A DNA stretch of 64,000 nt from Fistulifera solaris (lineage: Eukaryota > Bacillariophyta > Bacillariophyceae > Naviculales > Stauroneidaceae). Both the position numbers and the translations under genes were made by a program. The DNA is taken from positions 62,001-126,000 of the forward strand of contig AP026124.1 in the NCBI GenBank assembly GCA_030295235.1. The letters are read 5' to 3'. Positions 4,280 through 62,936 of this stretch are shown here, one piece after another. The first letter of the stretch is position 1. Each line of letters starts with the position of its first letter. Below the pieces are notes generated by a model that was given only the letters and a program-made list of their open reading frames with translations, searched no databases and was not told the DNA's origin.

Positions 4280-5423
4280 GACAAAGAAAGAGGTAACTGA
4301 TACTTGGAAAATAGATACCAGGAAGGCTTTTGGAAAGTGACTATCATGAGCTAAAAATAACACAAACGCAATAAACGCGAAAAGGACTTTCCTCGCAAAT
4401 CGCGTCCTCTGGAATTGTTGTATTGGATGCCTACCAGGTACGTGCATATCACGTAGGCTCCGTAGGGAAATTAATTGACAACGAGGTAAACCCGGATATT
4501 GAGTATGGTTTCATTATCCATGTTTCGGGTTTGTTTGAGTGCGATACTCTAATGCATTACCCCAACATCCATCCTTCACACCAGTCAGCGATGTTCACAA
4601 CCAATTCAAAATCAAATCTTAGAAAAGAGCAAAGATACAACGCTTCTAATGTCTACGTGAGAATCACGTAGGGCCCGTAGGAAGTTTATCGATGTAAAAG
4701 GTCGCCAACACTGAATTTTATAAAAAATACGGACACCAACGGTATAAAAGATTATTGGCATTCATCATGAAGGCATGCATTGCAGAAACTGGTCAACGTA
4801 AGAGCTTCTCGAGCAATCAGTACGAACTTTTACTCAGTACGGAGTAATGGTCATCAGGCTCGAAACTTTTGGTTCGTGATTGAAATTCAATCGTGGTTAT
4901 GTTAATTTAACACTTCGTGCTATAGTAAAAACGGAAGCCAACGAGACGAAGTGAATTTCGACGGTAAATCACCACGGCGTGCACCGTTGAAGCTGTAGAA
5001 CGTAAATTCACAAAGTGACTAATGATATGTTTTTTGAGCGACCAGTAAGAACCTATATTTCTTATTAAGTATTAACCCGTCCCGTATAAATTTAGGTTCG
5101 TGTCACAGGTTATCGTAATGTTTGGACCCCCAAGCCCCAAGTCATGTCAACATAAGAATGGATGCGTATGTTGGAGCTGCTACTCGAACTTATTGAAAAG
5201 TAAGCTAAATTCTAGGCCATAGTTGCTTACACTTTCCTTCAAAGGACAGTAAACACTGCTTGATAATGACCGATTCGCTTCTTTGCAAGGACTTTGCTTT
5301 ATTGTTCTTGTTTTGCCAAATATTGCGGTTGAGTACGATTGGATAGTCCTTTGCTTACAGTCAATCGACTTAGATAACTACGACACGGCATGATACATGT
5401 CGAACAAGTTTTTCCGATTCATG
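4280..5423. other. Intergenic, upstream of GRASP
   Basis: No gene is seen in this 1.1-kb stretch. It holds one exact TACCAGGTAC (4432-4441) and one TACGGAGTA (4838-4846). A related pair of short segments containing CACGTAGG and CCGTAGG lies near 4449-4470 and 4665-4682. Confidence 0.6.
4432..4441 (+). promoter_or_regulatory. TACCAGGTAC motif
   Basis: Exact copy, 150 bp upstream of the GRASP start, in intergenic DNA. Confidence 0.5.
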
Positions 5424-6757
5424 CTATTCTTGCCAGTGGATCGATTTAAAGTACTGCACATGTTCGTTGCGAATGTTGTAGCACGGATGCGTGGCTGCCA
5501 CAGACGCATGCCTTGAGAACACGACAATTTCATCCTCCGTTTCACTCGACTTACCGCGATACTGCTGTGCAATTGACAAGCCAGATAGGTTATAGCACGA
5601 ATGATAGAAATCTCGGGTCTTGGATGGCTTGTCGCGTAAACCTCCGTGAATGTCTTGTGCGCATAGTAAAATGTATCGTTCCAACATGGCCGTATCAAAA
5701 GCGCCGCCGAAGTTTTTGTATCATTAGAACCATCATTCGACAATAAAAGATCACTGACTACCGCCAGAGCACCTCCTTGCCAGAAACTATAGCATCCGTC
5801 GACCAGTTTGTTGGATCGACCACTGAATCCACCTTCCAACGCTAATTGCCTTCGCGATGCATAATCGCAAAGCGCACCTAAATCGATCAAATGGGTACTT
5901 TCCATCAATTGCAAAGCCGCAATGGCACAATATGTGTATCCACCGTGTGCTTCGGCACCGGGTTCCCCACCAAATCCACCTTCCCATGTTTGACACGCAC
6001 TGACAAAGTTTGCCCATGAAAGGGGTAACGGTAGTTGCAACAACGAGAGGACGGCAATACAACAATATGTCGCTCGGACATCAATTTCTCCATCGTGATG
6101 CATTCGCACACGACCTTGTTCATCGGCCAGAGTAAGCATCCACTGATAAAGAGGCTTTCGCACTTGCTGCAAGAGGTGTAGTGCCGAGTGTGATGATGAC
6201 GGCTGTAGCGTATCGTTCTTCACCGAATCCATTGCATGTCGTTCATGACTAGCGAGAATCGCCAAGGACATTACTGCCGCATAGGTCGTTGCCGCATGAG
6301 GCAGCTGTCCCGGTCCTCCACCAAAGCCTCCATCCCGTGGATGAAAAAAGAGTTGTAGTGTTTGTACCATAGCTTGACGTTCCTCCGCCGTAGTTTTGTA
6401 ATCGAGCAAATCACACGCATGTAATGTCCAGTAAATCATCCAGGATCGACTGGAATCGAGTGTTACAAAAGAAGGACGCAGTTGGGATCGTAAGGTCGGT
6501 TGAAAGACGGGTGATAAGTATTGTATGTGTCGATCGACCAATAGACAAATATCCAAGTCCTGCTCGTCAACTGACCCTTCCGTACTCATAAGCAATCCCG
6601 ATTGTCGTAAATGATCCAATTGACTGGGAGGCAATGTTGCCAAGTTGACAAAAAACGGTTGACATTCCATTTCGGTTCGTTGTTGTTGTCGAGTCGAGTC
6701 GGTGCGTTTTAAAAACGGCATGACCGTTTGTTGATCGATCTTTCGCACAATCGTCAT
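5424..6757 (-). CDS. FNTB: Protein farnesyltransferase subunit beta, one frame break
   Basis: The beta subunit binds zinc, farnesyl diphosphate and the CaaX peptide, and prenylates Ras-like proteins in the cytosol. The alpha-alpha barrel repeats are plain: DGGFGGGPGQ, then TWEGGFGGEPGAEAHGGYTY, GGFSGRSNKLVDGCYSFWQGG, and finally RDFYHSCYNLSGLS. The DGCYSFW segment contains the zinc-ligand Asp and Cys, and HSCYNLSG supplies the ligand His. At the five-base run 5713-5717 one base is missing. The reading continues in the next frame as FDTAMLERYILLC and ends at 5424, giving about 444 residues, normal for the family. Without the correction the gene would lose its last barrel repeat and the zinc His. 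It is divergent from ISD11. Confidence 0.92.
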
Positions 6758-6789
6758 AGTTTTGCTATCAAAAGTGGGTTGTTGTAGGT

Positions 6790-6799
6790 GTACCTGGTA
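6790..6799 (-). promoter_or_regulatory. TACCAGGTAC motif (minus orientation)
   Basis: Exact reverse-complement copy in the FNTB/ISD11 spacer, 33 bp upstream of the FNTB start. Confidence 0.5.
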
Positions 6800-6913
6800 T
6801 CTTGTTGTTGACTTTTGCTAACAGGCTAATTAATACTCATAGCTCATAGGGCACCTTGGTTGTCGTTGTCGCGGTTACCTGGAGTCATATAATTGCTCAC
6901 ACGACCATTTCGT

Positions 6914-6928
6914 GACTAAACTCCAGTC
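6914..6928. repeat. GACTG-N5-CAGTC palindrome, one mismatch
   Basis: GACTA-N5-CAGTC; a degenerate member of the interspersed palindrome family, intergenic. Confidence 0.4.
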
Positions 6929-7244
6929 TTAGAAATTGCCATTGTAACCCGACTCACGACTCACAGCTCACAGCTTACACAAAGGCTTACAGCTCACAAA
7001 GGGGTATATGTTGCAGCTCATGACTAAAATTCCTTGCCACGTCATCTTCACGTCATCGTCTGTCTTCGCTCGGTCCGACTGGTCGTTCCCACGTTTATAG
7101 CTCTCGTTGCGACCCTTTGCGACGACGCTTTGGTTTATTCATTCGTCTTCTGTATCATCGTCGTCCATTTTGTTCTTACGTTGTCTTTCTTCATCTCGCT
7201 ATATTTTGTATCCCATCGCAAGATACCTAACCGAATACATCAAG

Positions 7245-7615
7245 ATGTCATCACTGCAATTGTATCGTTCGATGATGCGACAAGCCAAACACATTCACGA
7301 TTACAACTTTCGAGAGTATGCCTTGCGTCGTGTCAAGGCGGGTTTTCGTCAACATCTATCTGCGACCGGGTGCGTGTCATGATAGTCGCTCGAGTTTCAA
7401 TCTGGTGTTTGTCTTTGATTCTACGATTCAATCACTTGACAAGTCTAACGTCACCTCCATCATCATTGTTTCATTTTCTGTTGCACAGACCCGAATTGCA
7501 AACGGCCCTACAATTTGGTCAAGAACAATTGCAAGTCATGCAACGGTTTGCCCAAATGTCGCAATCCTATCCGAGTGCTCGATCTGTTATGGAATCTGCG
7601 CCATTTATGGGTTAG
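7245..7615 (+). CDS. LYRM4: LYR-motif protein ISD11/LYRM4
   Basis: ISD11 stabilises the mitochondrial cysteine desulfurase NFS1 in Fe-S cluster assembly. The 83-residue protein starts MSSLQLYRSMMRQAKH and has the Leu-Tyr-Arg motif at residues 5-7. It continues YNFREYALRRVKAGFR, closely matching the ISD11 helix pattern, rather than other LYR proteins. One 119-nt intron lies at 7370-7488 (donor GTGCGT, acceptor TTGCACAG) and splits a glycine codon. Spliced length is 252 nt, in phase. No long presequence is visible, which is usual for LYR proteins. It shares a divergent spacer with FNTB. Confidence 0.88.
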
Positions 7616-7836
7616 TAACAGAGAGAGGACTTTTGTTTTGTAGATTGCTTCCTGAATGATTATACTTTCAAGTGCGAATGGCACCTTTTCTAAACATTGG
7701 ATGCTGGATGCACGAAACAAAATCGACACACGTCACAAGTTACGTATTAAAAAGAATAGCAATAAGTAACTTATGACTTTTATCATCAACAACAGCAACC
7801 ATCATCAATACGGTCTCCACTTTCCCCACATTCGTC

Positions 7837-8397
7837 TTAACGAAACAAATCTTTCATACGCATCGCATCCTTTTCGTACCGCTGTTGCGCTCGCTTCTCA
7901 CGTTCTGCACGCAATCCTTCCTTCCCACCAAATCGTTTGTGTGCTCGTTGTCGTATTTCACTCCGAGCATACAGCTTAACCTTGGCCCAGCGGGGATTAC
8001 GGGGATTCGGACGTTCTTCTACCACCTTACAAACCGATAAAGTGCCCACGGGTAAACAGTACTGTTGCGTAGCCTCGGTTTGAGTCACAAACGGTGATGC
8101 GCCCACTTCAAAATCTTCTAATTCATCCTCGTTGTTTGTGTTTGCCGTTGTAGCATATTCCGTTTTCGCCTTCTTGTGATTGCTGTTGTTGTTGCTGCCA
8201 TTGTCTTTACTAATCTCTATAACTTTCTCTTTGCCTGAATTTTCTACACATTTGTCATTCTGTGATTCTCCTGCTCGATCTATTTCCTCTTCGATCTCTG
8301 CTCGTTCGCCCTCTTCTTTCTCTCCTTCTTGTCTTCGAATCTTTCCTCCTTCCTCGTTCCCATCTTCCATCTCCTTTCGTTTTAGTACAGTATTCAT
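7837..8397 (-). CDS. XPA C-terminal-domain-like protein
   Basis: The protein is 186 residues. The first 80 are highly charged (Glu/Lys/Arg-rich, then Asn/Ser), probably disordered. The last 75 resemble the DNA-binding C-terminal domain of the nucleotide-excision-repair protein XPA: YCLPVGTLSVC, then NPRNPRWAKVKLYARSEI, then RFGGKEGL and a basic helix. The zinc finger that precedes this domain in true XPA is absent, so this is either a shorter relative or has an unrecognised upstream exon. The upstream small frame ends only 26 bp away, which leaves little room for a promoter. I infer a nuclear, DNA-binding role with moderate confidence. Confidence 0.65.
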   Translation of the reverse strand: MNTVLKRKEMEDGNEEGGKIRRQEGEKEEGERAEIEEEIDRAGESQNDKCVENSGKEKVIEISKDNGSNNNSNHKKAKTEYATTANTNNEDELEDFEVGASPFVTQTEATQQYCLPVGTLSVCKVVEERPNPRNPRWAKVKLYARSEIRQRAHKRFGGKEGLRAEREKRAQQRYEKDAMRMKDLFR

Positions 8398-8423
8398 GTT
8401 TATTCCTGGTTCTGTTTTCCTAT

Positions 8424-8609
8424 TTACTGACGAGCTGATGATCCCGATAAAAGTCTACGTTCGTCGGGACCTGCCATAAACCAAAAGGCGCCACGCAATA
8501 CAACAAAATAAACAGTCAATTGTCCCCAAAACCACAATTGAGGATTATTCCACCCTTTGTTATTGCCGTTACCGTTACCGTCCGCGCCACCTGGTTGTAA
8601 TGTAAACAT
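8424..8609 (-). CDS. Small single-span membrane protein, unknown
   Basis: This 61-residue frame has a Gly/Asn-rich N-terminus, one hydrophobic segment rich in aromatic residues (LWFWGQLTVYFVVLRGAFWF) and a basic tail. I do not recognise it. It could be a short subunit of an organellar membrane complex or the first exon of a longer gene. It ends 26 bp upstream of the XPA-like gene on the same strand. It has a clean ATG and aromatic-rich composition but no homology I can name. Confidence 0.4.
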   Translation of the reverse strand: MFTLQPGGADGNGNGNNKGWNNPQLWFWGQLTVYFVVLRGAFWFMAGPDERRLLSGSSARQ

Positions 8610-9246
8610 GAAAAAGAATTATTTGGTGAAATGGAAATTAAGACTTCAATGGAAGTAAATTAAAATAATGATATCACGTCAATGGGTGTTATTGCTGCAA
8701 GAACAGGTTTTGTGAGGCGCAGGAGCGCGCTGGCCGCAGACCGCAGATACAAGGTACGTAGTACGGTACTGTTTACTTGCTACCAGGTACCGGTACCAGT
8801 ACCGCGCGGTAGTTGCTTACCCGACAAAACGAGCGTCTGTCCCTCGCACGACACAACTCGACACTCAACCAACAACCACCGCAATCTTTTTTTTCAATCT
8901 GACTTTCTTATCGCACCAGAGTTTGATTACTCGGACACTTACTTCGAAAAACAAATCCATTGAAGCAGATTTGAAAATTATTTGAACGCATCGACGCTGG
9001 GTTGGTGATAATTATAGGGTGAAATGCATCACCTTGTGCCCCAAGGTTACTATAGAATTAAATGTAGATTCTTCATGCCCCGACTCAACCATATTGCAGT
9101 CCCGGAACTCTTGAATGGCGCTGTCTGTCCTTCGAACGCACAACGGCCGCTCGTGACGTTGTTGCACTTTACAGAGCAAATAAACCAAAAGAGGATTGAT
9201 TATTCCTTACTTCCCTTCTAATTATCCCCCCTTGTTCGTGCATTTG
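8610..9246. promoter_or_regulatory. Divergent spacer with a GTAC-rich island
   Basis: This 637-bp spacer has no gene. At 8750-8815 there are several GTAC tetramers within about 65 bp, including an exact TACCAGGTAC overlapping ACCGGTAC. A CT/CAA-rich stretch follows. Confidence 0.55.
8781..8790 (+). promoter_or_regulatory. TACCAGGTAC motif
   Basis: Exact copy inside the GTAC-rich island between the small membrane protein gene and the gamma-CA-like gene. Confidence 0.5.
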
Positions 9247-10068
9247 ATGATGAGTGTCTCCAAATCAATTCAGGAAGTGCTAGGACGAGCCCTCCGCGAA
9301 ACCGGAGCTCATTTGAAGCGTCAGGGAAATGTCGAAGTACGTTTGTTGATGATTTTATTGGCTTTCCCTCTCGTTTTGTTCTTTGTTGCTTACCATTTTA
9401 AACCCTTCTATTGATTTTCTTCCATTCTTTATTGCACTTTCTGATAGATTTTTTCACGCCATCGTCCAAAAATGACATTTCGCGGTCAAAAGCCCTTTCA
9501 AACGAACGATACCTTCATTGCACCGAGCGCTTCGGTGATCGGGAATGTCACCAATTGGGATCAATCCACTGTTTGGTACAAAGCAGTCGTTCGGGCAGAT
9601 ACGCATCCTATCACAATTGGATTTTCGAGCAGTGTGGGAGAAGGAACGGTCATTACTACGTTGAATGTTGAAGAGTTGGAGGAAACCGGTTTCCCTCCAG
9701 AGACGCACATTGGCCATTATGTCACCATTGGAGCCGGTTGTATCTTAAAATCCTGTCGCATAGATGATATGGTCAGTGTAGGAGACAAGTGTGTCATTTT
9801 AGAGGGAAGTCTTGTCGAAAATAATGTCATTCTCGAACCAGGCACGGTCGTTATGCCTTACCAGCGCATTCCTTCGGGTCAAAAATGGGGAGGCAATCCG
9901 GCGGCCTATGTTGGTGAATTGACGCCGGAAGAAAAGGAACACATTCCCGCGGAAGCCTTGCATGTGCATGAACAAGCAAAAGAACATTTGGTGGAATTCT
10001 TGCCCTACGGATACAGTTACGTGCATTTGGAAGATGTCGAGAAAGAGCAGTTGAGCAAAGAAGGTTAA
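9247..10068 (+). CDS. Gamma-carbonic-anhydrase-like complex I subunit lacking zinc ligands
   Basis: Gamma-CA and gamma-CA-like proteins form the trimeric matrix arm of mitochondrial complex I in plants and algae. The 236-residue protein has the family N-terminus (ALRETGAHLKRQGN, then SRHRPK), left-handed hexapeptide repeats (FIAPSASVIGNV), VVRADTHPITIG, and the C-terminal IPSGQKWGGNPAAYVGEL. The three zinc histidines expected in active enzymes are replaced: VITT in place of V-x-H, and VTIGAGCILK in place of TIGHxxxxH. This points to a structural gamma-CAL type. A 111-nt intron (9337-9447, donor GTACGT) joins QGNVE to IFSRHR in phase. Two adjacent ATGs (9247, 9250) could each serve as the start. 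Confidence 0.85.
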
Positions 10069-10209
10069 CTCAGAAAGGAAACAAACCAAGACAGACGATA
10101 AAATCGCACGATGCACCTGTCTAATCATCCATTTATCAGTACAACAGTCCTATAAAAAGTAAGAATGCATTGCTTTTAATAAAAACTTATTGTGATGCCG
10201 AGTCGAAAA

Positions 10210-13763: not shown

Positions 13764-13888
13764 ACGGAGTAGCGGGTGCAAACTAATTGTTCACTTTCCT
13801 CTTGCACCACAAAGAAAATCAAGAATGAATCAACATGGGATACAATAAGCCGTAAATCAACAGCTTTTTAAAATCATACAGTGGCGTC

Positions 13889-15702: not shown

Positions 15703-15717
15703 GACTGGATGTCAGTC
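15703..15717. repeat. GACTG-N5-CAGTC palindrome
   Basis: Exact arms, flanked by a further perfect 9-bp inverted repeat, GATTCATGA (15688-15696) and TCATGAATC (15716-15724). Confidence 0.55.
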
Positions 15718-15851
15718 ATGAATCAAGTTTTTCCGAGCCCAGGCAGGTAACGATACCGGTACAGTACTGGTACTTGTACCATTTTCATTTTTTCGCAGTG
15801 TCCTCATCATAAAGCACGGCCAATACTTAATGATCCCAGTACATAAATTAA

Positions 15852-16034
15852 AAAAGTGGAAAATTCAGTCGAATGTCAAGATTAGATTCTGACGATTAAA
15901 AAATTAGGAATAAAATATATATGTGTTATTTCACCGCAAAAAAAAAAATTATTTAAATGAAAAGTGGAAAATTCAGTCGAATGTCAAGATTAGATTCTGA
16001 CGATTAAAAAATTAGGAATAAAATATATATGTGT
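15852..16034. repeat. Perfect 75-bp tandem duplication, period 108
   Basis: Copies at 15852-15926 and 15960-16034 are identical by eye over 75 bp, each followed by an A-run and TTATTTAA. The absence of differences suggests a recent duplication (or an assembly artefact). Confidence 0.85.
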
Positions 16035-16429
16035 AAAAAAAAATTATTTAAGGAAAAAGGCCGTATTGAATCCATGTTACGCACCCTCTAGTAGAAAGTA
16101 GGAATTCGTTTCGAAAAGTCAAAAATGTACATAATTAATTTTCAATATGAAGAGGAAAAGGATAGAAGGCAACCTACAGTTGTCCAAAGATCCAACTGTT
16201 TGTTGGCAATATACCAGGTAGTGTACCTCAAACCCGAACCCATAGTTTGTGCTCGTCGCTCGTCGGCAAATGGGAAATGGGTCGATGGTTCATCCTTTTA
16301 TAGCTGGTCGACATCAACTGTTTGCCAAATCTCTCTCTCTCTCTACGGAGTTCTTTCTTTATCAACGGTTTATGCTCACGAATCATCATCATCATCATTA
16401 TCGATTCTAGTAATTAAAACACACGCGTC

Positions 16430-20660: not shown

Positions 20661-20670
20661 TACCAGGTAC
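20661..20670 (+). promoter_or_regulatory. TACCAGGTAC motif
   Basis: Exact copy in the LRR/ABCG divergent spacer, 16 bp before the hairpin arm at 20686. Confidence 0.5.
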
Positions 20671-25489: not shown

Positions 25490-26956
25490 ATGGCGTTCAA
25501 TTTCGGAGGAGGAGCATCGTCGTCGTCGTCGTCATCATCAGCCGATGGTAACAAAGCGCCAGCATTTTCTTTTGGCGGCAACAGTACAGCAGCCGCTCCC
25601 TCTTTTAGCTTTGGTGGTGCTCCAGCCCCTCCACAACCAATACTAGTAGTAGTACGAGCGGTAGTACGGGAGGATTTTCGTTTGGAGGAACACCGGCGGC
25701 GGCGGCGGCGGCTACAGGAAATGCTTTTTTCGTTTGGGGGTACAGCGAGCAGTAGCGCTGCTGCGCCGGCACCATCCGCTGCACCTTCCTTTGGTTCGTT
25801 TGGTGCGACAGCAAGCGACAGCAAATCAACAGCACCATCTTTCGGAGGATTCGGAGCAGCTGGTGACGAAAAGGCCACAGCGGCACCCTCGACGACCGCG
25901 CCGTCGTTTGGGTCGTTCGGAGCATCGACGAATGCCGCCCCCGGTGCCTTTGCGTTTGGCTCCAATGCCCCTTCAGAAAAGGCTGCTCCTGCTACTAATG
26001 ACGCTCCGCAAGCACCTCCCGCATTTGGGGCTGCTCCAGCTACCGGAACTGCATTTAGCTTTGGTGGTAGTGGAGATGCAGCAGCAGCAGCAGCTCCGTT
26101 GAGTGAACGGAACGAGTCGGTATCCTTTGGAGCAAGTGCAGAGACCTCTGCGACGGAGAAAGCGGCACCTGGTACCTTTAGTTTCGGAGGCAGCGACAGT
26201 GGAGCACCCTCGCAAAGCAATAAACGTGCTTCCTTTGGAAATGACGAAGACTCAGTCCCAGTGGGTGTTTCGACACCGGCTTCGAAATCAACTACTACCT
26301 TCCCAGCGGCATCTACTCCCACTGCACCTCCTCCCGTGTCGACGCCCGCCAAGGTGGACGCGACGCCTCGCAAAACAGCCACAGAACCACCGCGTCTTGA
26401 TTATCAAACATTGACGGTCGAACAAATCATCAACAAGTTTCAGAAAGAATTGGAACAGGACGCCATTGCCTTTCTCGAAGAAGCCCGCCGTGTCGCCGAG
26501 TATGATGCCATTTTGCGGGATTCACAGCGAAATATTGTCAAATTGACGCAATTGGCGCATCACACACTGATTGGACAACAGGAATTGGAGCAAATGCTCA
26601 ACGGTATCGACGCTTTTCAGCGGGAGCTCGAGACGACGCTCAATACGGTAGAACAACATGTGGAAGATTTGTTTCAAGCGCAGTCTCATCATTTACCGGC
26701 CGATGCGGACATGGAACGAGAGAAGGCGTATGCCACAGCGAGTGCGGTTGAACAGCGACTTCAAGAATTGTCCGAGTCGCTCCAAACTGTGTTGGGAGAA
26801 ATGGATGCGACACAGCAACGAGTACTGACCGGAGACACGGGAAAGATTGTCCAGATTTTGAGTCAGCACGAAAAGAGTTTGGCTGATTTGGAAACAGCTG
26901 CACGGCGTATGGAATTAGATGTGGGACATGTCAGTAAGCTATTGGAACGTCGCTAA
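25490..26956 (+). CDS. NUP62: Nup62/Nsp1-type FG nucleoporin, two compensating breaks
   Basis: Nup62 (Nsp1) is a central-channel nucleoporin. The N-terminal 300 residues are FG-repeat sequence (FSFGG, FGGFG, SFGSFGA) with Ala/Ser/Thr/Pro spacers. The C-terminal 180 residues form the conserved Nsp1_C coiled coil, starting LDYQTLTVEQIINKFQKELE. Between the runs 25626-25629 (one C short) and 25725-25730 (one T extra), about 34 residues read as an Arg-rich, FG-free segment. In the neighbouring frame the same bases encode FG-repeat sequence (TGGFSFGGTPAAAA). The two breaks cancel, so the coiled coil is in frame. No intron is seen. Confidence 0.92.
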   Translation: MAFNFGGGASSSSSSSSADGNKAPAFSFGGNSTAAAPSFSFGGAPAPPQPILVVVRAVVREDFRLEEHRRRRRRLQEMLFSFGGTASSSAAAPAPSAAPSFGSFGATASDSKSTAPSFGGFGAAGDEKATAAPSTTAPSFGSFGASTNAAPGAFAFGSNAPSEKAAPATNDAPQAPPAFGAAPATGTAFSFGGSGDAAAAAAPLSERNESVSFGASAETSATEKAAPGTFSFGGSDSGAPSQSNKRASFGNDEDSVPVGVSTPASKSTTTFPAASTPTAPPPVSTPAKVDATPRKTATEPPRLDYQTLTVEQIINKFQKELEQDAIAFLEEARRVAEYDAILRDSQRNIVKLTQLAHHTLIGQQELEQMLNGIDAFQRELETTLNTVEQHVEDLFQAQSHHLPADADMEREKAYATASAVEQRLQELSESLQTVLGEMDATQQRVLTGDTGKIVQILSQHEKSLADLETAARRMELDVGHVSKLLERR

Positions 26957-27193: not shown

Positions 27194-27203
27194 TACCAGG
27201 TAC
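27194..27203 (+). promoter_or_regulatory. TACCAGGTAC motif
   Basis: Exact copy just upstream of the palindromic repeat array. Confidence 0.45.
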
Positions 27204-34778: not shown

Positions 34779-35322
34779 CTTGCGGGCTTGTTAGTTACTA
34801 CCAGTATGCAAGAAAGGAAACAACAACACTCGCGTTACCTGGTAGGGTAAAGAATACTAAAGAACCCCTACCAGTAGAGTTTGACAAGAAGGTGCAAAAT
34901 GAAATTATTTACTATAGGCCAAAATGTTGACAACCTTTTGGCGTGACTTGATGTCAGTCATGAGACACAACGAAGAATGAATCATCCTCCCATCTTGGTC
35001 GTTTGGTACCTATGACCTAGCCTGTGATACTCGCTATTTCGTTTACAGTGAACTGCTCATAATGCTCGACATTTTCAATATTCTGATCATTACTTTGCGT
35101 CGATATTCCTGTCGACGTTTTTCGTTCTCGCGACTCAGAGCTGCGATCCAATCCTATTGAGGAAGCGAAATAGTATAATGTAGTTTTCTCAATTGCACGA
35201 AGGATCATCCAGGAAACTAGAAGCCGAACGAGTGTGACTGCTTAAACTATATTTATTACTTAAATGGACTCTCGAGGTCCCTGTGCTCATAGTTCATAGA
35301 GGATTGTAGTCAACCATAGGCA
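34779..35322. promoter_or_regulatory. Spacer upstream of the DUF1415 gene
   Basis: 544 bp without a gene. It holds a one-mismatch TACCTGGTA (34836-34844) and a one-mismatch palindrome (34945-34959), 100 bp apart. Confidence 0.5.
34945..34959. repeat. GACTG-N5-CAGTC palindrome, one mismatch
   Basis: GACTT-N5-CAGTC followed by ATGA, the same flank as at 15703 and 42517. Confidence 0.45.
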
Positions 35323-36393: not shown

Positions 36394-36806
36394 TTGGAAG
36401 AAAGTAAAAATAGTAAAACTATTATCTTGTTATTCCTTGGTATTGTAATGATGATGATTGACGTTTGTTATGGTTACCAGGTACAGTGAGAGAAAAAAGA
36501 GGCAGACCGTTTGTTCGACTGGAGATACGACGAAACGTTTTTTCTCCATCATACATCATACTCACCACATGGGATTCTCCGGATTCCCTCAGTCCCGGTT
36601 CCCGGTTACGTCTGATAGGCGTCCGTACAGAGCGCTACCGCATACCGCGGCGGCCAAAAAGAGGCACCGCACCGCGTTTTGTTTTTTATTATTGCACTGC
36701 AATAAGAATATCGTCTTCATGTTATAAAGAAACAGGACAATTAAGCGTTTGCAACTAATATTTATTTGTCCTGAGTCTTATTTTTGTTCAAATAACAAGA
36801 GAAATA
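36394..36806. promoter_or_regulatory. Divergent spacer PsbP / SANT corepressor
   Basis: 413 bp containing an exact TACCAGGTAC at 36475-36484 and no gene. Confidence 0.5.
36475..36484 (+). promoter_or_regulatory. TACCAGGTAC motif
   Basis: Exact copy in the PsbP/SANT divergent spacer, 82 bp upstream of the PsbP-protein start. Confidence 0.5.
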
Positions 36807-42394: not shown

Positions 42395-43276
42395 TTATTT
42401 CATGGATGAATGAATAGTAGGAATGTGGTGGATGCCCCATCACGTGTGACGAATTTTGTTTCTTTTCAACGAGAAACTTTCACTATAGGCTTCAATTGTT
42501 GGTTGTAAGCAGCCACGACTGCATTTCAGTCATGAATTACAGTATCTGTCATCTGTCCCTGGATAAGGAAACGCACTGCTATGCTGCTTGGTACATTTGG
42601 CGTACGTGATAGTACACAATTTCCCGAACCTCCGGTACAAGGTACAAGTACCGGTACTGGTATTATTTATTCCCTGTGCCGACGTTCCGGCTCTTGACTC
42701 TTGACAAGCGCCGTAATGAGAAATGTTAAAACTAAAAGACTCCGGAGTCCGGAGTCGTCCTCCGGAATTTAAAGAAATAATTAGAATGAGAGTAATGCGT
42801 GTGATGAGTGATGAGTGATGAAATGAGCAGTGACGTATCACAAATGCAAGTTCAACCTTTCTCTTCCCACTTTGCACGCTTACTATCATCGAAAACAGCA
42901 TTCAGGGTTCTGGTTCTGGGAAAAGATTCTATCCTACGTAGTAAAATTAACACTTATTCTTTATTCTTCTTGGTTATTCCATCTGAATAGTAAATAGTAG
43001 CAATGATTTTTCATGCAGTATTCCCGAAAGACAACGAGCACACGGAAAATTTTCGATTGCTATCATCTTGATTGTACTAAACAGAAGAAGACGTTGGGGG
43101 GAGGCGGAGAAAAGAGCTCAGCTTTGCAGCTCGACCTCGCCCCTCCCGCAAGAGACGCGCGGGCCGAAAAATTATTACCGTTGCTCTGGTATTGACGTTG
43201 GCTTTTGTTATATTTTAAGTCCTATCGACTATCGACTATTGATAATTGTTGATTCGAAACTCACTTTTCGTTATCG
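42395..43276. promoter_or_regulatory. Divergent spacer MOSC / kinase
   Basis: 882 bp without a gene. It holds an exact GACTG-N5-CAGTC palindrome (42517-42531), a GTAC-rich island (42630-42662) and repeated CCGGAGT segments (42732-42762). Confidence 0.55.
42517..42531. repeat. GACTG-N5-CAGTC palindrome
   Basis: Exact. CACGACTGCATTTCAGTC (42514-42531) is identical, over 18 bp, to the reverse complement of the copy at 55399. Confidence 0.55.
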
Positions 43277-49500: not shown

Positions 49501-52500
49501 TGTTGCTTTTCCGAGTTGATGTTCTCTTGTTTCTTTTTTGTTGCGTCGTTTCCTCTCCTTTGCTTCTTGTTTCTTTACTTTCTGCTCATGGCGAAGTCTC
49601 TCCTTCTCCTCCTTTTCCAATAATTTCTCTAACGCCATCATATCTTTTTTTCGTCGCTCCGCCTCGGCTGTGTCTGCGTGAGGATCGTAGACCTGCACCT
49701 GCTTTCTGCTTCTTTTGACTCCGTCGTCGAGCATCTGAGCGATTTCGTCAGGAGTTTCTTCTTGTACCTCTAAGCCTACTGCTTTTGACCAAAACTCGGG
49801 GTCGTCGAGGTCGACGTCTTTTGTGCCATCGTCTGTGTTAGCCACAAAACTTGCCTTGCTGAAACTTCCAAGTCCGCTACCCAAAGATGATGTGGCAGAA
49901 GCTCCATAAGTCACTTTGCTTGAATGTTCAAGAAGCTGATCAATATCTGTTTCCATAAATTTTTCTGCTTCAGTGTCATCTTCATCTCGAAACACATCAT
50001 ATGCTCCTTTTTCAGCAACTCGTCAATCTGCTTGGCCTGTGCTTCCTTGTCACTTTTCTTTTCAACTTATCTTCGCCCTCTTCGCTCTGTTCTCTACTTT
50101 GAGACATGACTGCCCTTTCCAGTCCAAGCTTTAAGCTTGCGCTGTGAAACATGTGCATTTCGTACGTTTTTGCGGTCAACAGGCTTTTCAAAACGCATAC
50201 ATGAATAGGTGTCATGATGTTCATGCAAAATATGTGATTACGAATAACTTACCGGTAAACACGGACAGCCCTTGTCTGGCCGATACGGTGGGCTCTCGCC
50301 ATCGCCTGCAAATCGTTTTGACTTTCGGAAAGAGTTTATTTGTCAGTCTATGATCGCTTTGTACTGTGAAGATGCCTAGTTTACTTACGGATTCCAGTCG
50401 CTGTCAAAGATGATAACCACATCAGCAGCAGTAAGATTCAAACCAAGTCCCCCAGCTCTTGTACTCAACAACATAACAAAGCGCTGGAAGGACTTCTTCG
50501 TAAATCTATCCACGGCGTGTGTGCGAGAGGAAGATGAAGTTGAACCATCGAGTCTCTCGTAGCGATACTTCTTTATTCTTAAAAGCTCCTCCAGTAAGTC
50601 AAGCACGCGGACCATCTGGCTGAAAATCAATACCTTGTGACCACCATCAAAGAGTTTTTGTAAAAGTTTTTCCATCAAAACCATTTTCCCTGATGACTTT
50701 ATCAGTTGCTCTCCAAAAAGGCGCGAATAGTCTACAATAGCCGGTTCTCCGTCAGTGCCGGCAGCACTCTTCAACTTTGCCGCAGCCTCTGCAAGAATGC
50801 GGTCTTCTGCTCCTTTGATCAAATATGGGTGATTGCAGCACTTCCTTAATTCCATCATCACATTCATCAGGCTAGGAGCATTACTGGGCTTTGCCCCACG
50901 GAACAAAAAGATGTGTTGCGCTCGTAGATCGCCTTGTAGAATGTCTTCTGAATCGGTGTTAGCGACACTTCCAGAATTGTTTCTTCTTTTGGTGGGAGCG
51001 ATTTCTCTACATCCTCTTTTACGCGACGTAGCAGATACGGCTTGAGGAGCGAGTGGAGTTCATTAACTTGCTCTGCATCCGTCATTTCTCCAAACTTTTC
51101 AAGAAATGATTCCTTGTCAGAGAAAACACCAGGATTCGCAAAATTGAGGAGCGCCCATAGCTCTTCTGTCGCGTTTGCAATCGGAGTGCCTGTGAGCAGC
51201 AGGCAGAAGTCGCGAGGCACGTTTGCCAGCTGTTCAAACAAACGAGATTTTGAATTCTTCAAGCGGTGAGCTTCATCCACTATCAGTGCTTTCCACTTGA
51301 TTTTGGATATCACCTGTACGTCTTTCAGAATCACTTCGTAAGTTGTAATCAAGACGTGGAACTTTGTGACATGTTGCTTCTTCAGTTTTATAGCATCAGG
51401 CCGGGGAATGAACTGGTCGGTGAAGTAAAACTCTTGCTCTACAAGAAACTCTCTAGCGTCAGCTGAGCCATGGTATAGCAAAACATTCAAATCGGGTGCC
51501 CAAGACATGAGCTCAGATTGCCATTGACCAACCAAAGACAATGGCGCAACAATAAGGAAAGGTGCGCGGACTTGCGTTGCAGACTGAGTCTGTAATTCAC
51601 GGAGAAATGCCGCTGATTGGATCGTTTTTCCAAGACCCATCTCGTCTGCCAAAATACAGGATCTTTTATTCCACCAATTGAACAACAGCCAATTAACGCC
51701 TTCAAGTTGGTATCCTCTCAATCTGAACCCCTTGCTATTTACTTCCTCTTCGTCATCTGCTGATTTCAATATTGTACCGTCATTATTCATAAGCAGTCTC
51801 GGTCGGCTGGAAATTCCATAATCCGCCGATTCTTGAACTTTACGAAACTCGCGAATATGAGGATGAGGGAGCTCCCTGTAGTCACTGGGTGGCTTTTGTC
51901 TATACCAAAAATCTTCGGCTTCGTCCACAGCATCACGCTTTATGTCACGCCAATACTCCCACGTCATTTCAGCAAAAGGCATTCCTTTCCACTTGACCAC
52001 GTATCTTACATTATCTTCTGGATCCCACGGGATGTCGTTTTCTAAATCTACATCCTTGACCAAATGTTGGTAAAGGGTCTCCTCGGACACTTTGATCGCT
52101 TCGGATTCTTTTTTATGTAAAGCCTCTTGCTCTTCAATCAGATTTGCTGTGCGTTGTTTAGCTAAAACACTCATGTCCATCTCGTTTTCATCACACGCAA
52201 GAATTCGTTCAATCTCCAGACAGTCTCCACCAAAATATTCTTCGGCAGGTTCCAAAAACTGACCATGTATTAGTGTTGTTGTTGATGATTGGTGATCCGC
52301 TCTCATAATCGATTTCCAATTCAGACCCATGTTTGATTCTTGTTGCTGGTAATAGCGGCGAATCTTGTTGCGAGCGGTACTGTTGTTGGACGAATCCAGC
52401 CGTATCACGTCGTCCGCTCGCTCCCACGAGCAATGCAAATGAGAGCGTCCGCGCCACTTGATGAGAAGAACTTCCTCCTTCTCATCCATCACCTCATACG

Positions 52501-55155: not shown

Positions 55156-55201
55156 AATGTCAATAGCGATAGAATTGGTAGGATTTCAACGATAATAATT
55201 A

Positions 55202-55600
55202 TTATTCATCAACTGGCGAGAATAATACTGGTACGAGGGAGATCAAAATGGAGTTTCGAACACGATTGATTGTTTGGTTTTGGTTTTGGTTTTGGTTTTG
55301 GTGATCAGTTTGATCAGTGATCAATCGTATGCGCGCGAAAAGAAGCACCATCACCAGCAGCACCATGGCACGAGAGAGGACGATGAGGGTCAATCCGGGA
55401 CTGAAATGCAGTCGTGAGAAAAGGTCGCTTACACTTTCAGCTAGAGTAAATACGAATGAGATGAAGTTGTGAGCGCAAAATAATAGTTGTAGGGCGGACA
55501 CACGGAAGACTATGGAGGATTGACGCAATGCGATAAAGGATGGACTTAATCCCTGACCAAAGAGTTGCCAGAAAGACATTGCGTATGGTGTATGGCGCAC
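55202..55600 (-). CDS. Possible small membrane protein (weak)
   Basis: A 132-residue frame with three or four hydrophobic stretches (LQLLFCAHNFISFVFTL, LIVLSRAMVLLVMVLLFARI) and a QNQNQNQNQ stretch encoded by a GGTTTT repeat (about 55275-55302). No homology is recognised. It also contains a copy of the otherwise intergenic palindrome (55399-55413), which argues against strong coding constraint. A true short gene or chance. Confidence 0.28.
   Translation of the reverse strand: MRHTPYAMSFWQLFGQGLSPSFIALRQSSIVFRVSALQLLFCAHNFISFVFTLAESVSDLFSRLHFSPGLTLIVLSRAMVLLVMVLLFARIRLITDQTDHQNQNQNQNQTINRVRNSILISLVPVLFSPVDE
55399..55413. repeat. GACTG-N5-CAGTC palindrome
   Basis: Exact copy with the flank GTGA on the right; matches 42514-42531 over 18 bp on the opposite strand. 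Confidence 0.5.
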
Positions 55601-55792
55601 GCCGACTCTTCCCGTTCAACAAATTAATGCAAGAAGTTAACAAACGCACATGCGATACGCAACGAAACCTTCCTTTATGAATAAAAGTATTGTTTATAAT
55701 AACCGTAGTTTATTTACAGACTGAAATCTCGTAGTAACAACAGAACCCGCAATCCAATTTCTCTTTGTTTCGTCACACAACATTATAGCTTT

Positions 55793-57844: not shown

Positions 57845-58365
57845 TCTTGCTTTTTTTCAATAACTATTCTTTCAGTCCGCCAGTCAATGAGTCCCTTTGT
57901 TCATTTATTTCTTCTTTTGTGCTTTATCGTTGGATATTTATCGTAAAATGAAGAACAAATGCTGAATTCATTTTAGGAAATGCTTCGCTGCTGTTCTTCG
58001 TCACAAGGAATGCGGAGATCGCGAGAGCGAGACGAAGCGTTTGGAATAATGAAAAGGCCACTCGTGACCGCATCTCAATCCAGTCGGGTTTTCAGGATCC
58101 ACAAAATAATACAGATACACAATTTACACAGCGTTATACGTTATACGTTATACGATAAAGGATACGTTTTTGTGAGGCCGCCGCCTGTCCATCCCACCGA
58201 TCTATCCGTTGATCGGCATTTTTCAATTTTTGACGAACAATCATCGTTCGCGCTTTTTGCCATTATTTTTTTTTACATTGCATGTCCACCTGAAGGAAAG
58301 CACTTTTTATTTCTTCTTTCTTTGATAGACTCATTGACTATAAAGACTAAACAAAAAACTCAACC
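57845..58365. promoter_or_regulatory. Divergent spacer ATM1 / unknown gene
   Basis: 521 bp. A threefold TTATACG repeat lies near 58134-58156, and a pyrimidine-rich leader precedes the next ATG. No gene is seen. Confidence 0.45.
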
Positions 58366-59274
58366 ATGGAAAACAAAGCTGCTAAAGAACTCTGGAAGCA
58401 GCCCATTCAAGACACAGGAAGTTTCACATCCGATAGCAAGACGGCAACTGGGCCTTCTTTCATTACGACGGCCGAAACGACCACGATTGCGGCCAAATAC
58501 AACGGCACTGTGTTGCAATTTCTGGACAGTAATAACAAAAATAATGAATTAGTATTCGAAGATACATTTGCTCGGAAAGTAGGATATACGGGTAGAGCAC
58601 CGGATGGGACGTTTGTTCGACGGTGTCAACAAAAACTCGGTAATGGTTTGAATGTATGGTATTTGTATCGGACGACTCCCATCCTAGACGATCAAACACC
58701 TTCATTTATTGTGCCGGCGAGCGAGTTGGCGGTTAAAGAGAAGTCCGAATCATCATCGGCGGCTACAACAGCCACAGAAAACGTCACCGAAAGTGAAGTT
58801 GCATCATCGGTGGCAACCAATGACGACAAGGAGACTGCAGCCATTGATACCACCACCACAGCAGCAGCCGAAGACGAAATTGTCAATCTGTACTTGTACG
58901 CACGCATCATTCCGGTTCGTGGGACGAGTGGAACGGCATCGTACGTCATCTACAGTACGGTCAAAGGCATTGATACGGATTGTCGCGAATCGGGAGCCGG
59001 CTTTCTCTGGAAAGATATTTACAAAGTCGTGAAAATTCCCCAATTTCAGTACGCGGCGCTCATTTTGGATATTTCCGAGTATTCCAACAAGATTGTAGGC
59101 AAATCACAACAAACCAGTGCACTCGATGTGCGTCCGACGTTTACATTGGCTGCCGGAGTCGATATGCCGGCCGTGATCGCCTCATGTGTGCCATTGTTGC
59201 CGGAAGGTTCGAAAGTATGGTTGGGAGCGAGTTTGGCGTCAGATTTATCCGGTATGTTGACGGCGGCTTTGTGA
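58366..59274 (+). CDS. Unknown protein with two ordered regions
   Basis: A 302-residue frame starting MENKAAKELWKQPIQDTG. Residues about 30-115 look ordered (AAKYNGTVLQFLDS, VFEDTFARKVGYTGRAP, LNVWYLYRTTPIL). A Ser/Ala/Thr/Glu-rich linker (about 118-170) follows, then a second ordered part (VNLYLYARIIPVRG, YVIYSTVKGIDTDCRESGAG, FQYAALILDISEYSNKIVG). No signal peptide or membrane segment is obvious; the last 40 residues are rather hydrophobic. I recognise no family. Composition and even codon use suggest a real gene. Confidence 0.6.
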   Translation: MENKAAKELWKQPIQDTGSFTSDSKTATGPSFITTAETTTIAAKYNGTVLQFLDSNNKNNELVFEDTFARKVGYTGRAPDGTFVRRCQQKLGNGLNVWYLYRTTPILDDQTPSFIVPASELAVKEKSESSSAATTATENVTESEVASSVATNDDKETAAIDTTTTAAAEDEIVNLYLYARIIPVRGTSGTASYVIYSTVKGIDTDCRESGAGFLWKDIYKVVKIPQFQYAALILDISEYSNKIVGKSQQTSALDVRPTFTLAAGVDMPAVIASCVPLLPEGSKVWLGASLASDLSGMLTAAL

Positions 59275-59481
59275 GTCGATCGATCAAAATTCAAGGACGA
59301 TAAATACGGAACTTGGCGATGAATGCAACGATGCTACTAGAATGGCATACAAGAAATTGAAAACTCGACAGCTTGAGCCGACAGCACTCTAGTGTATTGT
59401 TATGAATATAGCGGCTTTTCTGTACTATTTACGAAACTTCCACGTGATAATCTAGAAGATCTCACCGTTATTCCTTCACTC

Positions 59482-60294
59482 CTATTCTAGAATATCGTAA
59501 TAGTCCAAATGTTGTCCACTTTTGAACTTTTGATCAAACAATATATCCACAAGTTTTGCGGCAGAATCATCCGGATCAACTAATTGCTTTTGATAATGCG
59601 GCCGGAGTGAAGTATCGAGCAATGGAGCTTGTCGAATTTGATCCGTCATGTCGGTTTCCAAAGGACCCGGCGCATAATTCAATACCAAGACATGTTCTCC
59701 TTCTTCTTCATCTTCTTCCTCTAGCGCCAAAGCGGCATGAAACAAATCTCGTGCTGCTTTGCTGGCCGAATACATACCCATGGAAGGAAAGGCTTGTATC
59801 GCCACGAGAGAAGAAATGTTGACTACCACTGTTTTCGGACACTGCATCGTTTCCTTGGCCCATTGCACGAAACGTGCCGACAACCAACAGGCACTGGTAA
59901 TATTGAAATCCAACACTGCACGCATTTCTTGTAAATTTGTATTCCGACAAGGACCGATGGGTCCTAAACTACCGGCATTATTGATAAAATATAGTTCGGA
60001 TACACTTTCGGAGGATAACTCTGCCAGCAACGACTCGATGCGATGGGATAAATTGTCCATTTGACTGAGATCAATTGCATGACAGTTGACTGTAATATTC
60101 TGATTGGAAGACAGTGCATCATGAATGAATTGTTGCGTGACATGTAAGGTTGCTGGATCTCGTGCCAACAAACATATCTTCCATGGTTCTTGTACCGTCA
60201 TTGTAGAAGAAGAACAAAATTGTTTCACAAACGCCAGAGCGATCGATCTTCCCAAACCCCGCGATGCTCCCGTAACGACCAGAAGTTTTGTCAT
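59482..60294 (-). CDS. SPR: Sepiapterin reductase (short-chain dehydrogenase)
   Basis: NADPH-dependent reductase of the last step of tetrahydrobiopterin synthesis, cytosolic. The chosen ATG gives MTKLLVVTGASRGLGRSIA, with the Rossmann TGxxxGxG at the very N-terminus, as in the family. An upstream ATG would add poly-Ile from an ATT repeat. Also present: YFINNAGSLGP, the catalytic Ser in VNISSLVAIQAF, YSASKAARDLF with the Tyr and Lys, and the sepiapterin-reductase-specific VLNYAPGPLETDM. Length is 270 residues, close to the animal enzyme. Other pteridine-acting SDRs are possible. Confidence 0.85.
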   Translation of the reverse strand: MTKLLVVTGASRGLGRSIALAFVKQFCSSSTMTVQEPWKICLLARDPATLHVTQQFIHDALSSNQNITVNCHAIDLSQMDNLSHRIESLLAELSSESVSELYFINNAGSLGPIGPCRNTNLQEMRAVLDFNITSACWLSARFVQWAKETMQCPKTVVVNISSLVAIQAFPSMGMYSASKAARDLFHAALALEEEDEEEGEHVLVLNYAPGPLETDMTDQIRQAPLLDTSLRPHYQKQLVDPDDSAAKLVDILFDQKFKSGQHLDYYDILE

Positions 60295-60679
60295 AATAAT
60301 AATAATAATGATTGTGAAATATGAATCATAATCATACAACTGCAAGGAACGTTTTTACTTCTGTAGATTGAAATGTATTTCTTGCAACGAATGAATGAAT
60401 CATCATCGTCGTAAAACGCGCTGCGATTAGCTCGAATCATCATCATCATCATCATCATCGATGATGTCTCGTCAGTCGTGAGTCGTGATTCATTCGACGA
60501 TGCGCTCTGTGTGACGTCAGCCTTCGTTGTTGGCGTCTCGCATTCCTGCAACATGCAACAACAACGAGGCTTCTCATGTTTCACAACAACATTTGCTTAC
60601 AATAAATATATTATTACACTTTCTACAAACCAGTTCATCTTATTTTTCTCTTTGTTTTCATTCAAAGAAATTACAACAA
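60295..60679. promoter_or_regulatory. Divergent spacer SPR / repeat protein
   Basis: 385 bp with ATT and ATC/CAT microsatellites (about 60291-60307 and 60436-60460), and TGACGTCA-like TGTGACGTCAG near 60511. No gene is seen. Confidence 0.5.
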
Positions 60680-61700
60680 ATGAAATTTTCTTTGTTGATC
60701 GTTTCCGCTATTGCAGCAAAGCAGTCATCAATGGCCTTTGTGGTGTTCCATCAACCCACAACAATGCACCATGGTGCACCACGACAATTCTTTCTTCTTT
60801 CGTCCGAGTCGTCAACCAACGAACAAAAAAGTCGGCAATTTAGTTGCCGACGATGAATGGAATGGTTTGAGTCTCGAATTGGCGGAAGTGGTACGATTGG
60901 CGGTCGTGGAAGATTTGAAAAAGAATACACGGGAATTTCTGGGGAAGGATGATTACAAAGTAGGTGATCTCAGTAAAGAAATTGACTCGCGTGTCAAACA
61001 AGGAGGTGCGTCATTTCATGGAATCCTCTGGGATCTGTATCTGCAAAAAACTCCGTCACTTTGACTTGGCAATGATCACTCATTTCTCGTTTTGTTTTTT
61101 TCAGTGGCACAAATGAGAAATAAACAAGATTACGAATTGGGCGATTTTGTTTTGGCCATGGATGAAATGGCCAAGAGTATGACTGAACAAATGACAGGTA
61201 AAGAATATGAAACGGGAGATTTATCTTTGGAGTTGGACAAACGGATCAAACAAAAAGTTGCCGATTGGGCCGGTAAAGAGACCTACGAAGTAGGGGATTT
61301 ATCACGTGAAATGGTGAAGCGTGTACAGGTGCGTTGCATAAAATACTTTCACACGGAGGCAAGTCAAACGAAACAATGCTCATCATATTATTACTTTATT
61401 GTGTTTTTACCTTTATTTGTTTTTGTATAGAGCCGCGTGGAAGAATTCACAGGCAAACCGTACGAATTGGGTGATGTGGCCCGCGAAATTGAAAGTCGAC
61501 GTCGTAATTGGATCCGCGATTATCTCGGTGCGGAAGCTGCCGACAACTATCAATTTGGGGATATTACGAAAAAGGCCGTATCACAATTTACGGGCAAAGA
61601 CGAGTACGAGTTTGGTGATATTACGAAAAAAAGTCATTGGTGGTTTGTTTTCAGGAAAGAAAAAGAAGACGGAATGATCGACAACGCTTTGCGTGGCTAG
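60680..61700 (+). CDS. Predicted plastid protein of Y-x-x-G-D repeats, one frame break
   Basis: About 272 residues. MKFSLLIVSAIAAKQSSMAF has a signal peptide ending at a Phe, resembling the diatom ASAF plastid-entry motif. After a short linker the protein is seven units of about 20-35 residues with the core G-K-x-x-Y-x-x-G-D-[LIF]: GKDDYKVGDLSKEI, NKQDYELGDFVLAM, GKEYETGDLSLEL, GKETYEVGDLSREM, GKPYELGDVAREI, NYQFGDITKKA and GKDEYEFGDITKK. Introns lie at 61006-61104 and 61329-61430, both with donor GTGCGT. At the six-A run 60825-60830 one base is extra; removing it makes the total 819 nt. I do not know a function for this repeat. Confidence 0.75.
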
Positions 61701-61804
61701 GTAGGGTAGATAGATAGGCATATGAAAGGCAGAAGAAGTTAGCTAGTAAAACAAAACCTTTATCGTTTATTTATTGATATCAGACCTTTTTCACGTACAT
61801 GTTT

Positions 61805-62476
61805 TCAAAACAGAACACGAAATTGCCCCATCACTAGTGCCAACGTCGACGACCAAAGAAACCCATTCCACGAGCGTGTTGCTGACGATGTCGGTATACC
61901 ACTGGTGTTGGACAATACCGGAGAAACTGTACCACCGTCAGTTTGATTGTTTGTGATGGAAATGGTGGGTGATGCTGTCAACACAGCAGTAGGAGACTCC
62001 GTGACGACGATTGATGGTTCCGCGGATAAAATCACCGGAGCCACACTGGGTGATTCCGTGAGTATCACTGGACTTCGCGTCGGGCGAAAGGTCGGTAAAG
62101 TCGTCGGAACACACTGATCCAAATAAGGTTGAAAGTCGCATTTCAATTCACACGTATAATTTAATGTTTGCAGCGAAAATGGATCGACTGTACACGTTTG
62201 ATACCATGCTAATGCTTCCGCCTCACAGACGGAACAACAACGCACCAATCCACAAAAGATTCTTTGTACATCATCACAGCTTTTGGGTTGGGGAGTGACT
62301 AAAGTAGGCGTACCGTCGGTCGGATCTGGATCGCAGGCTCCACAGGGACAGGGAGAATTGTTCAAGACGCAATCGCGATAAGGTTGCAAGCCGGCTGTTG
62401 AGCATTCCTGGCCTTGCAGTGTTCTAAGTAATACGAAAACCAATGAAAGAATCAAATAGTAGTGATAGAATGACAT
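61805..62476 (-). CDS. Secreted Cys-rich, TESP-repeat protein, probably GPI-anchored
   Basis: The ATG at 62476 gives a signal peptide (MSFYHYYLILSLVFVLLRTLQG). A Cys-rich domain of about 100 residues follows (PCPCGACDPD, FCGLVRCCSVCEAEALAWY, CELKCDFQPYLDQC). A Thr/Ser/Pro stretch with repeats of T-x-S-P (TESPSVAP, TESPTAVLTASP) is next, then a hydrophobic C-terminus (GFLWSSTLALVMGQFRVLF) like a GPI signal. Such PT-rich ectodomain proteins are common in diatom cell walls. Function unknown; likely cell-surface. Single exon, intact. Confidence 0.68.
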   Translation of the reverse strand: MSFYHYYLILSLVFVLLRTLQGQECSTAGLQPYRDCVLNNSPCPCGACDPDPTDGTPTLVTPQPKSCDDVQRIFCGLVRCCSVCEAEALAWYQTCTVDPFSLQTLNYTCELKCDFQPYLDQCVPTTLPTFRPTRSPVILTESPSVAPVILSAEPSIVVTESPTAVLTASPTISITNNQTDGGTVSPVLSNTSGIPTSSATRSWNGFLWSSTLALVMGQFRVLF

Positions 62477-62936
62477 TTTTGATAGGTAGTGAGTAATATT
62501 ACGAAGAAGAAAGAGAAATAAGTGCAAGTTACTGCATCGTTATTGTCATCGTTCATGTTGCCAAAATGCCGATCTCCATCCATTCGTCCATTATTCATTC
62601 GTGTTTCATTCGTTTGCGTTTTGGCAAGACTGGTACCATTTCCGTTGGATTGTTGTACGACATCAGTTGTCTGTTGAAAAGTCTGTGGCGGAGAACCGTG
62701 ACGATGCAGTGCGATCTTTAACATCGCATGATGCTACCTGGTACCGTACCTGGTACTTCCTTCATCTTTCTTCATTGTTGCTGTACTTGGTACTTCTTGA
62801 CACCGTTTTCTTATTAGATCGATTCAAAAGGCTTAAATATTCAAGAAAAGACTGGTGTGTTGAACGGCGATTCAAGTTCCCGTCGATGCGCATCGAGAAA
62901 CTCTTGTCATTCGCCATTTTGAGAATTCCTTCCGTC
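62477..62936. promoter_or_regulatory. Divergent spacer with paired TACCTGGTA motifs
   Basis: 460 bp. GTACCTGGTA (62746-62755) and a second one-mismatch copy (62734-62743) are 12 bp apart, with another GTAC repeat at 62781-62793. No convincing gene. Confidence 0.5.
62746..62755 (-). promoter_or_regulatory. TACCAGGTAC motif (minus orientation)
   Basis: Exact reverse-complement copy in the PT-rich/TDP2-like divergent spacer. Confidence 0.5.

Follow-up and report, generated by a model that had tools for sequence, protein, structure and literature searches.

A nine-base TA-flanked dyad enriched upstream of genes in the diatom Fistulifera solaris: insertion scar or regulatory site?

What accounts for the recurrence of one short word, TACCAGGTAC, in the spacers between genes of a stretch of Fistulifera solaris DNA, and is it a regulatory element or the trace of a mobile process? 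The window, i.e. the whole stretch under analysis (64 kb), comprises positions 62001-126000 of contig C2 and encodes eukaryotic protein domains, among them SNF2/chromo, Nsp1_C, and XPA_C. F. solaris is described as an allodiploid diatom with two subgenomes (PMC5935921). Two genes of the window were tested for counterparts, and each had one 90%-identical partner on contig C1. At least 151 HSF-domain matches were present in the genome, many of them at like positions on neighbouring contig numbers (C5/C6 and C13/C14). Comparisons between C2 and C1 are therefore referred to below as comparisons between homoeologs.

All seven exact copies of TACCAGGTAC that the first-pass annotation had placed in the window were confirmed at their positions, compared with 0.00 in dinucleotide shuffles. 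A search allowing one mismatch returned 16 matches versus 1.34 expected, some of them being a second reading of the same dyad, from the opposite strand. The one-mismatch copies that had been named before (16212, 34836, and 62734) were present, and further ones exist, e.g. at 26165. Across the whole genome (51.7 Mb, 61 contigs), TACCAGGTAC occurred 973 + 974 times in exact form (1,947), whereas the reversed word occurred 53 + 42 times (95). GTACCWGGTAC was found at 905 genomic places versus 42 for its control. The genome-wide excess of the short dyad is about 20-fold, and the motif is real. The word was not described as a motif in the article texts consulted on diatom promoter motifs, the F. 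solaris genome, and TA-transposon footprints. Footprint literature searched for TACCAGGTA and judged by title contained nothing on diatoms.

The motif was characterized in a contiguous 264-kb stretch of C2 that includes the window and in which coding segments, assigned by codon usage, make up 51% of the bases. The core unit proved to be the nine-base dyad TACC[A/T]GGTA, with TACCGGTA as a sister form. The former was present 36 times versus 0.5 expected and the latter 20 times versus 1.1 expected, each with 0 copies in predicted coding sequence, and the intergenic excess of the 9-mer was 65- to 70-fold. When TACC and GGTA half sites were paired at spacings from -3 to 20, intergenic DNA contained 40 pairs one base apart and 20 directly joined (coding DNA contained none of either), and each of the other spacings stayed in single figures. 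In 36 of the 40 one-base-spaced dyads, the middle base was A or T. The boundary of the nine bases is sharp, as 36 of the 41 intergenic copies of TACCAGGT, counted on either strand, ran on with A. Further TA-x-TA words were also over-represented, namely TACAAGTA (22 versus 5.2), TACCAGTA (19 versus 2.7), and TACGGAGTA (11 versus 0.7), and one-mismatch variants of the dyad summed to 44 versus 15.5 expected. From the end of a motif, the next TA followed at three to five bases in 27 of 72 cases versus 12.8 expected (loci L011, L014, and L025 were omitted from the C1 part of this analysis), and 5 of the 12 neighbouring motif pairs within 60 bp on C2 were at TA-sharing distance.

The position of the motif relative to genes was biased. 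In the 264 kb, TACC[A/T]GGTA was distributed as 17 copies in divergent, 15 in tandem, and 4 in convergent spacers, compared with 8.9, 17.0, and 10.1 expected from spacer length (p = 0.003 for divergent). For TACCGGTA, the corresponding counts were 10, 9, and 1 versus 5.0, 9.4, and 5.6 (p = 0.013 for divergent). Between 400 and 700 bp upstream of predicted coding starts, 17 copies of TACC[A/T]GGTA were found versus 5.1 expected and 12 of TACCGGTA versus 2.8. In the same 264 kb, GATC and CATG were free of divergent or upstream bias, and GTAC overall had a mild one. A lack of upstream enrichment or an equal frequency in coding sequence had been named beforehand as evidence against a shared promoter element, and within the 264 kb neither was seen. 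Location upstream of genes and absence from coding sequence, as looked for in a transcription factor element, were thus both found with the codon-usage gene calls. The initial statement that every copy lies outside genes held for the exact copies, all 20 of which in the 264 kb are outside codon-usage coding segments, but not for the one-mismatch copy at 26165, which is located within an ORF with an Nsp1_C domain (25490-26956).

Within the window, the original assignment of five of the seven exact copies to divergent spacers was too high, because only three are clearly of this type. The copy at 8781..8790 (+ strand) is situated between an XPA_C-domain ORF and a hexapeptide-repeat ORF and has a TA in common with TACCGGTA at 8788. 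That at 20661..20670 (+) separates an LRR ORF from an ABC-transporter ORF, with TAGTA in the homoeolog, and the divergent copy at 36475..36484 (+) corresponds to a 6-bp gap at TA in the homoeolog. Two copies look tandem: 4432..4441 (+), which adjoins a GRASP55/65-domain ORF and has been kept in this position by the C1 homoeolog as well, and 27194..27203 (+), upstream of a NAGPA-domain ORF. At 27194, the codon-usage call gave convergent flanking blocks and the NAGPA-domain ORF makes the spacer tandem, which shows that the gene calls are rough. The context of the remaining two, 6790..6799 (- strand, with the ATG of a prenyltransferase-domain ORF about 33 bp downstream) and 62746..62755 (-), is uncertain because the neighbouring ORFs 7034-7615(+) and 61805-62527(-) had no Pfam match. 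The homoeolog kept the copy at 4432, had two substitutions in the core at 6790, and did not keep those at 8781, 20661, 27194, 36475, and 62746, the last being absent from it. It was also without the core dyad TACCTGGTA at 62735..62743, whose next copy is 12 bp away. The core TACCAGGTA at 16212..16220 (+) is represented by TACGTA in a poorly aligned stretch. At the core dyad 34836..34844 (-; TACCTGGTA on the + strand), the homoeolog is net 6 bp shorter, best explained by 7 bp at TA combined with a substitution and an indel of one base. The sister dyad TACCGGTA occurs at 50250..50257. GTAC-dense patches had also been annotated, and three of them were found again, by count at about 15754 (15754..15780, with TACCGGTA) and 42630 (42635..42662, holding TACAAGGTAC at 42636 and TACCGGTA at 42649) and by reading the sequence near 8750 (8748..8803, surrounding the copy at 8781).

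Conservation was assessed by aligning C2 spacers with C1 loci, 17 at first, 25 for the second anchor test, and 27 for the filled-versus-empty scoring; L004 did not align, and L068 was not kept. Because the C1 loci L001-L030 had been picked for holding the motif, comparison from the C1 side is tilted towards "lost in C2." Locus L058, which overlaps the C2 stretch of L059, was part of the 17-locus alignment, the indel scan, the length-difference survey, the 27-row identity count, and the first anchor test and was left out of the per-base identity, the second anchor test, the filled-versus-empty scoring, and the period-7 control. Per-base identity between C2 and C1 was 0.61 for the dyad and 0.61-0.71 for its flanks to 350 bp (16 loci, 27 rows). 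In the same test, other words lay between 0.59 (TATA) and 0.79 (CCATGG, 7 sites), and TACCGGTA itself gave 0.47 (5 sites). A loose heat-shock-element-like pattern yielded 0.81 versus 0.74 beside it, suggesting that the test may be able to detect constraint. Of the 27 aligned rows, 3 (two loci) had an identical dyad, compared with 8-15% identity among nearby control words; with L058 included in this count, the kept site 129922 was scored gapped on the C2 row. By eye, copies were retained at 4432, 129922, and 260815, about 3 of 23 distinct sites, and two TACCGGTA copies were kept in the homoeolog at L066. Differences consisting of substitutions only were seen at 6790 (two) and 169318 (one). Conservation above flanking DNA, likewise looked for in a transcription factor element, was thus not seen in the aligned spacers. 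Because the dyad is no better preserved between homoeologs than its surroundings, a conserved promoter element is unsupported; of the shared promoter element proposed at the outset, the promoter-side location stands, but the conservation does not. The homoeologs also differ in motif density, with 20 copies on C2 versus 9 on C1 in homoeologous blocks (p = 0.04) and 36 in the first 428 kb of C2 versus 17 in the first 430 kb of C1 (p = 0.009).

Several copies coincide with length differences at TA. In well-aligned spots, TA-CCWGG-TA of one homoeolog can be matched by just one TA in the shorter one. The difference is 7 bp at 147140 and 187320 (264-kb coordinates, as for the next two sites), 14 bp or two units at 166393, and 23 bp at 152578, and some of the differences have a TA at both ends. 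The differences at 34836 (net 6 bp) and 36475 (6-bp gap) are less clean. When filled and empty states were scored, the empty one was favoured by at least 4 edits in 7 of 12 anchored motif rows versus 16 of 108 control TA-N4/5-TA words (p = 0.002), and three other thresholds gave p = 0.006-0.009, the rows being partly dependent. Against a period-7 direct-repeat control, the motif scored higher at a threshold of at least 2 bp (p = 0.001-0.005), and p was 0.02-0.08 at one of at least 3 bp. With microhomology of at least 4 bp, about 30% of the controls were "empty," and the motif, at 3/5 to 6/10, was not clearly higher (p = 0.06-0.15). The first anchor test retained too few motif rows for use. The second retained 10 of 33 TACC[A/T]GGTA rows, 2 of them with exactly TA in the homoeolog; among anchored control words whose middle was two bases long, the figure was 8 of 413. 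A set of 48 clean indels showed microhomology without TA preference (3 TA among the dinucleotides), and paralogous copies in the 264 kb and the C1 loci (L011 omitted) provided no clean empty site. The motif's own direct repeats make a 7-bp loss by slippage likely, and thus gain and loss fit the length differences alike. The homoeolog length differences are real, and insertion gain and slippage loss give one and the same picture.

On these grounds, we tentatively and narrowly favour a biased, TA-centred, transposon-scar-like insertion over a constrained transcription factor site. A TA would become TA-CCWGG-TA or TA-CCGG-TA, repeatedly, in DNA upstream of genes, and the inserted units would afterwards erode roughly as fast as neutral sequence. 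Recurrent events at one spot would build the GTAC-dense patches, because every event would create a fresh G-TA-C target. The events would be gains rather than losses, the insertions would presumably be made by a TA-targeting enzyme, and open promoter chromatin may attract them. A large excess without visible conservation is hard to maintain by selection. As rough arguments, the one-mismatch neighbours look too few to feed gains by point mutation, and their count is of the order that 36 exact copies would leave behind through neutral decay. The density difference would also fit an ancestral burst whose copies were later lost neutrally. Evidence against insertion comes from TACCGGTA, which adds 6 bp and could be tolerated in frame, yet is absent from predicted coding sequence, and from the sites that differ by substitutions and the few kept copies given above.

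The closest known chemistry would be the excision scar of a TA-duplicating DNA transposon. Sleeping Beauty excision is reported to leave non-complementary overhangs of 3 nt and to add one TA (PMC7351741), and mariner and Sleeping Beauty scars are given as 2-3 bases left behind (PMC7351741, PMC2642840). The near-constant A/T centre of the dyad would fit an overhang mismatch of the Tc1/mariner kind (Sleeping Beauty, Mos1), whereas the insert here is 5 (CCWGG) or 4 (CCGG) bases and not 2-3 (PMC2642840). Profile searches of the genome gave 0 matches for Transposase_1 (PF01359), a weak negative because the control genomes also gave 0, and 0 for DDE_3 (PF13358), for which 3 of 14 controls were positive. 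In the 264 kb, a search for paired TACC[A/T]GG ends carrying matched inner repeats, as would delimit a mobile element, gave no pair, and none of the seven TA-flanked inverted-repeat pairs started with CC[A/T]GG. A mariner terminal repeat, scanned with up to 4 mismatches, was rejected as the source, since the 264 kb and 29 of 30 C1 loci (L011 omitted) contained no convincing copy. The dispersed repeat at 15946-16043 was dismissed as a miniature element, with no inverted repeat of at least 12 bases in 15800-16200, and the C1 insertion opposite the C2 site 124406 turned out to be a tandem array with a unit of roughly 220-230 bp by eye and not a transposon with a motif end. In view of the scar size of 2-3 bases and the lack of matching transposase or ends in these searches, the mechanism is called scar-like and is not assigned to Tc1/mariner. 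The mobile or repeat-derived origin suggested by the first-pass annotation fits the TA-centred length differences, but no source element was found for it.

A putative dimeric transcription factor that binds TACC/GGTA half sites with a spacer of 0 or 1, often between divergent gene pairs, is a possibility that we take seriously without believing it probable; its sites would turn over rapidly by point changes and slippage. The strict dyad with only two spacings speaks for such a factor, as do the roughly twofold excess in divergent spacers with few convergent copies, the accumulation 400-700 bp upstream, and the absence from predicted coding sequence, and 7-bp slippage losses are what the dyad structure would lead one to expect. 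Palindromic transcription factor sites share the dyad symmetry, the promoter-side location, and the absence from predicted coding sequence, but the dyad described here is without visible constraint between homoeologs at the aligned sites. The twofold density gap between homoeologous blocks and the apparent scarcity of one-mismatch precursors from which point mutation could make new sites also argue against this explanation. The one F. solaris promoter motif encountered in the literature consulted is TABASTA, which a promoter study (PMC5935921) gives as its most abundant motif, with 2113 genes in one subgenome and 1588 in the other, and associates with higher expression. It too is a TA-x-TA word upstream of genes. 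However, TABASTA has 7 bp, TA[CGT]A[CG]TA, and is not matched by TACCWGGTA with its five bases between the TAs, and its six words total 85 versus 59.7 expected in the 264 kb, a far weaker excess.

The motif could instead be the commonest unit of a self-expanding low-complexity tract, in which GTAC-rich quasi-repeats with a period of 5-7 bp lengthen and shorten by replication slippage. Intergenic GTAC-GTAC spacings of 5, 6, and 7 occurred 13, 23, and 15 times versus about 2 expected, with harmonics, whereas none of nine other four-base palindromes exceeded 10 at its intergenic peak; the GTAC-dense patches point the same way, as does L010, where GTAC repeats enclose a length difference of 29 bp. 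Many copies are isolated, however, and the clean cases have a single TA in the shorter homoeolog, from which slippage cannot create CCWGG, so that we consider this origin improbable. Dispersed repeats are common in host DNA, but that the word is debris of a repeat family carrying it is very hard to believe, as the alignment of 66 copies had no base past the immediate flank with a frequency above 0.48. A single repeat family was rejected, since there was no strong similarity past the 9-mer and its flanking base.

Returning to TA-centred insertion, its fullest version is rather unlikely as a whole: a process aimed at TA, and stronger in one parental lineage than in the other, would have seeded thousands of palindromes upstream of promoters and left unequal homoeologous promoters but no recognisable surviving transposon. 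With its excess but no conservation between the examined homoeologs, the motif departs from the usual rule that enrichment goes together with function. The alternative to a process that writes such words would be a transcription factor network that rewires very fast. If a mutational or mobile process does write motif-like words into promoters, searches for motifs in diatoms would be misled by it, and it could be a driver of expression bias between homoeologs.

On C1, the contig homoeologous to the one from which the window is taken (C2), locus L066 holds three copies of TACCGGTA, the sister dyad in which the TACC and GGTA half sites are directly joined, inside about 160 bp. Compared with C2 (185101-185255 in the coordinates of the 264-kb stretch, which start at C2:62001), two of the three copies are kept, and the third reads TACCAGTA on C2. 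This cluster gives the sister dyad its best case for being under constraint. At a second C1 locus, L057 (C1:199860-201030), units of roughly 220-230 bp are arrayed in tandem; the corresponding C2 spacer lacks this array.

One repeat, dispersed or tandem, accounts for many of the strongest intergenic 10-mers in the 264-kb stretch; it includes words like TTTTCTGGGTACGTGAAAACACC and is seen for example at 240535-241231 (C2:302535-303231). GAA/TTC palindromes, e.g. CCAGAAATTCTGG, were found repeatedly in the window, and the genome that holds them contains at least 151 HSF-domain matches. Both strands carry long ORFs that overlap the one encoding an Nsp1_C domain (window 25490-26956).

Two dispersed repeats were also observed, one of ~100 bp (window 15946-16043) and one of ~1.2 kb (L043:8063-9287, at another locus of the genome). 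With 39 candidates scored for each, close copies of both lay on even-numbered contigs up to C20; on odd-numbered contigs, those of the shorter repeat extended from C31 to C39 and those of the longer were confined to C31. The contigs bearing these copies apparently represent one subgenome, and both repeats may be of use as subgenome markers.
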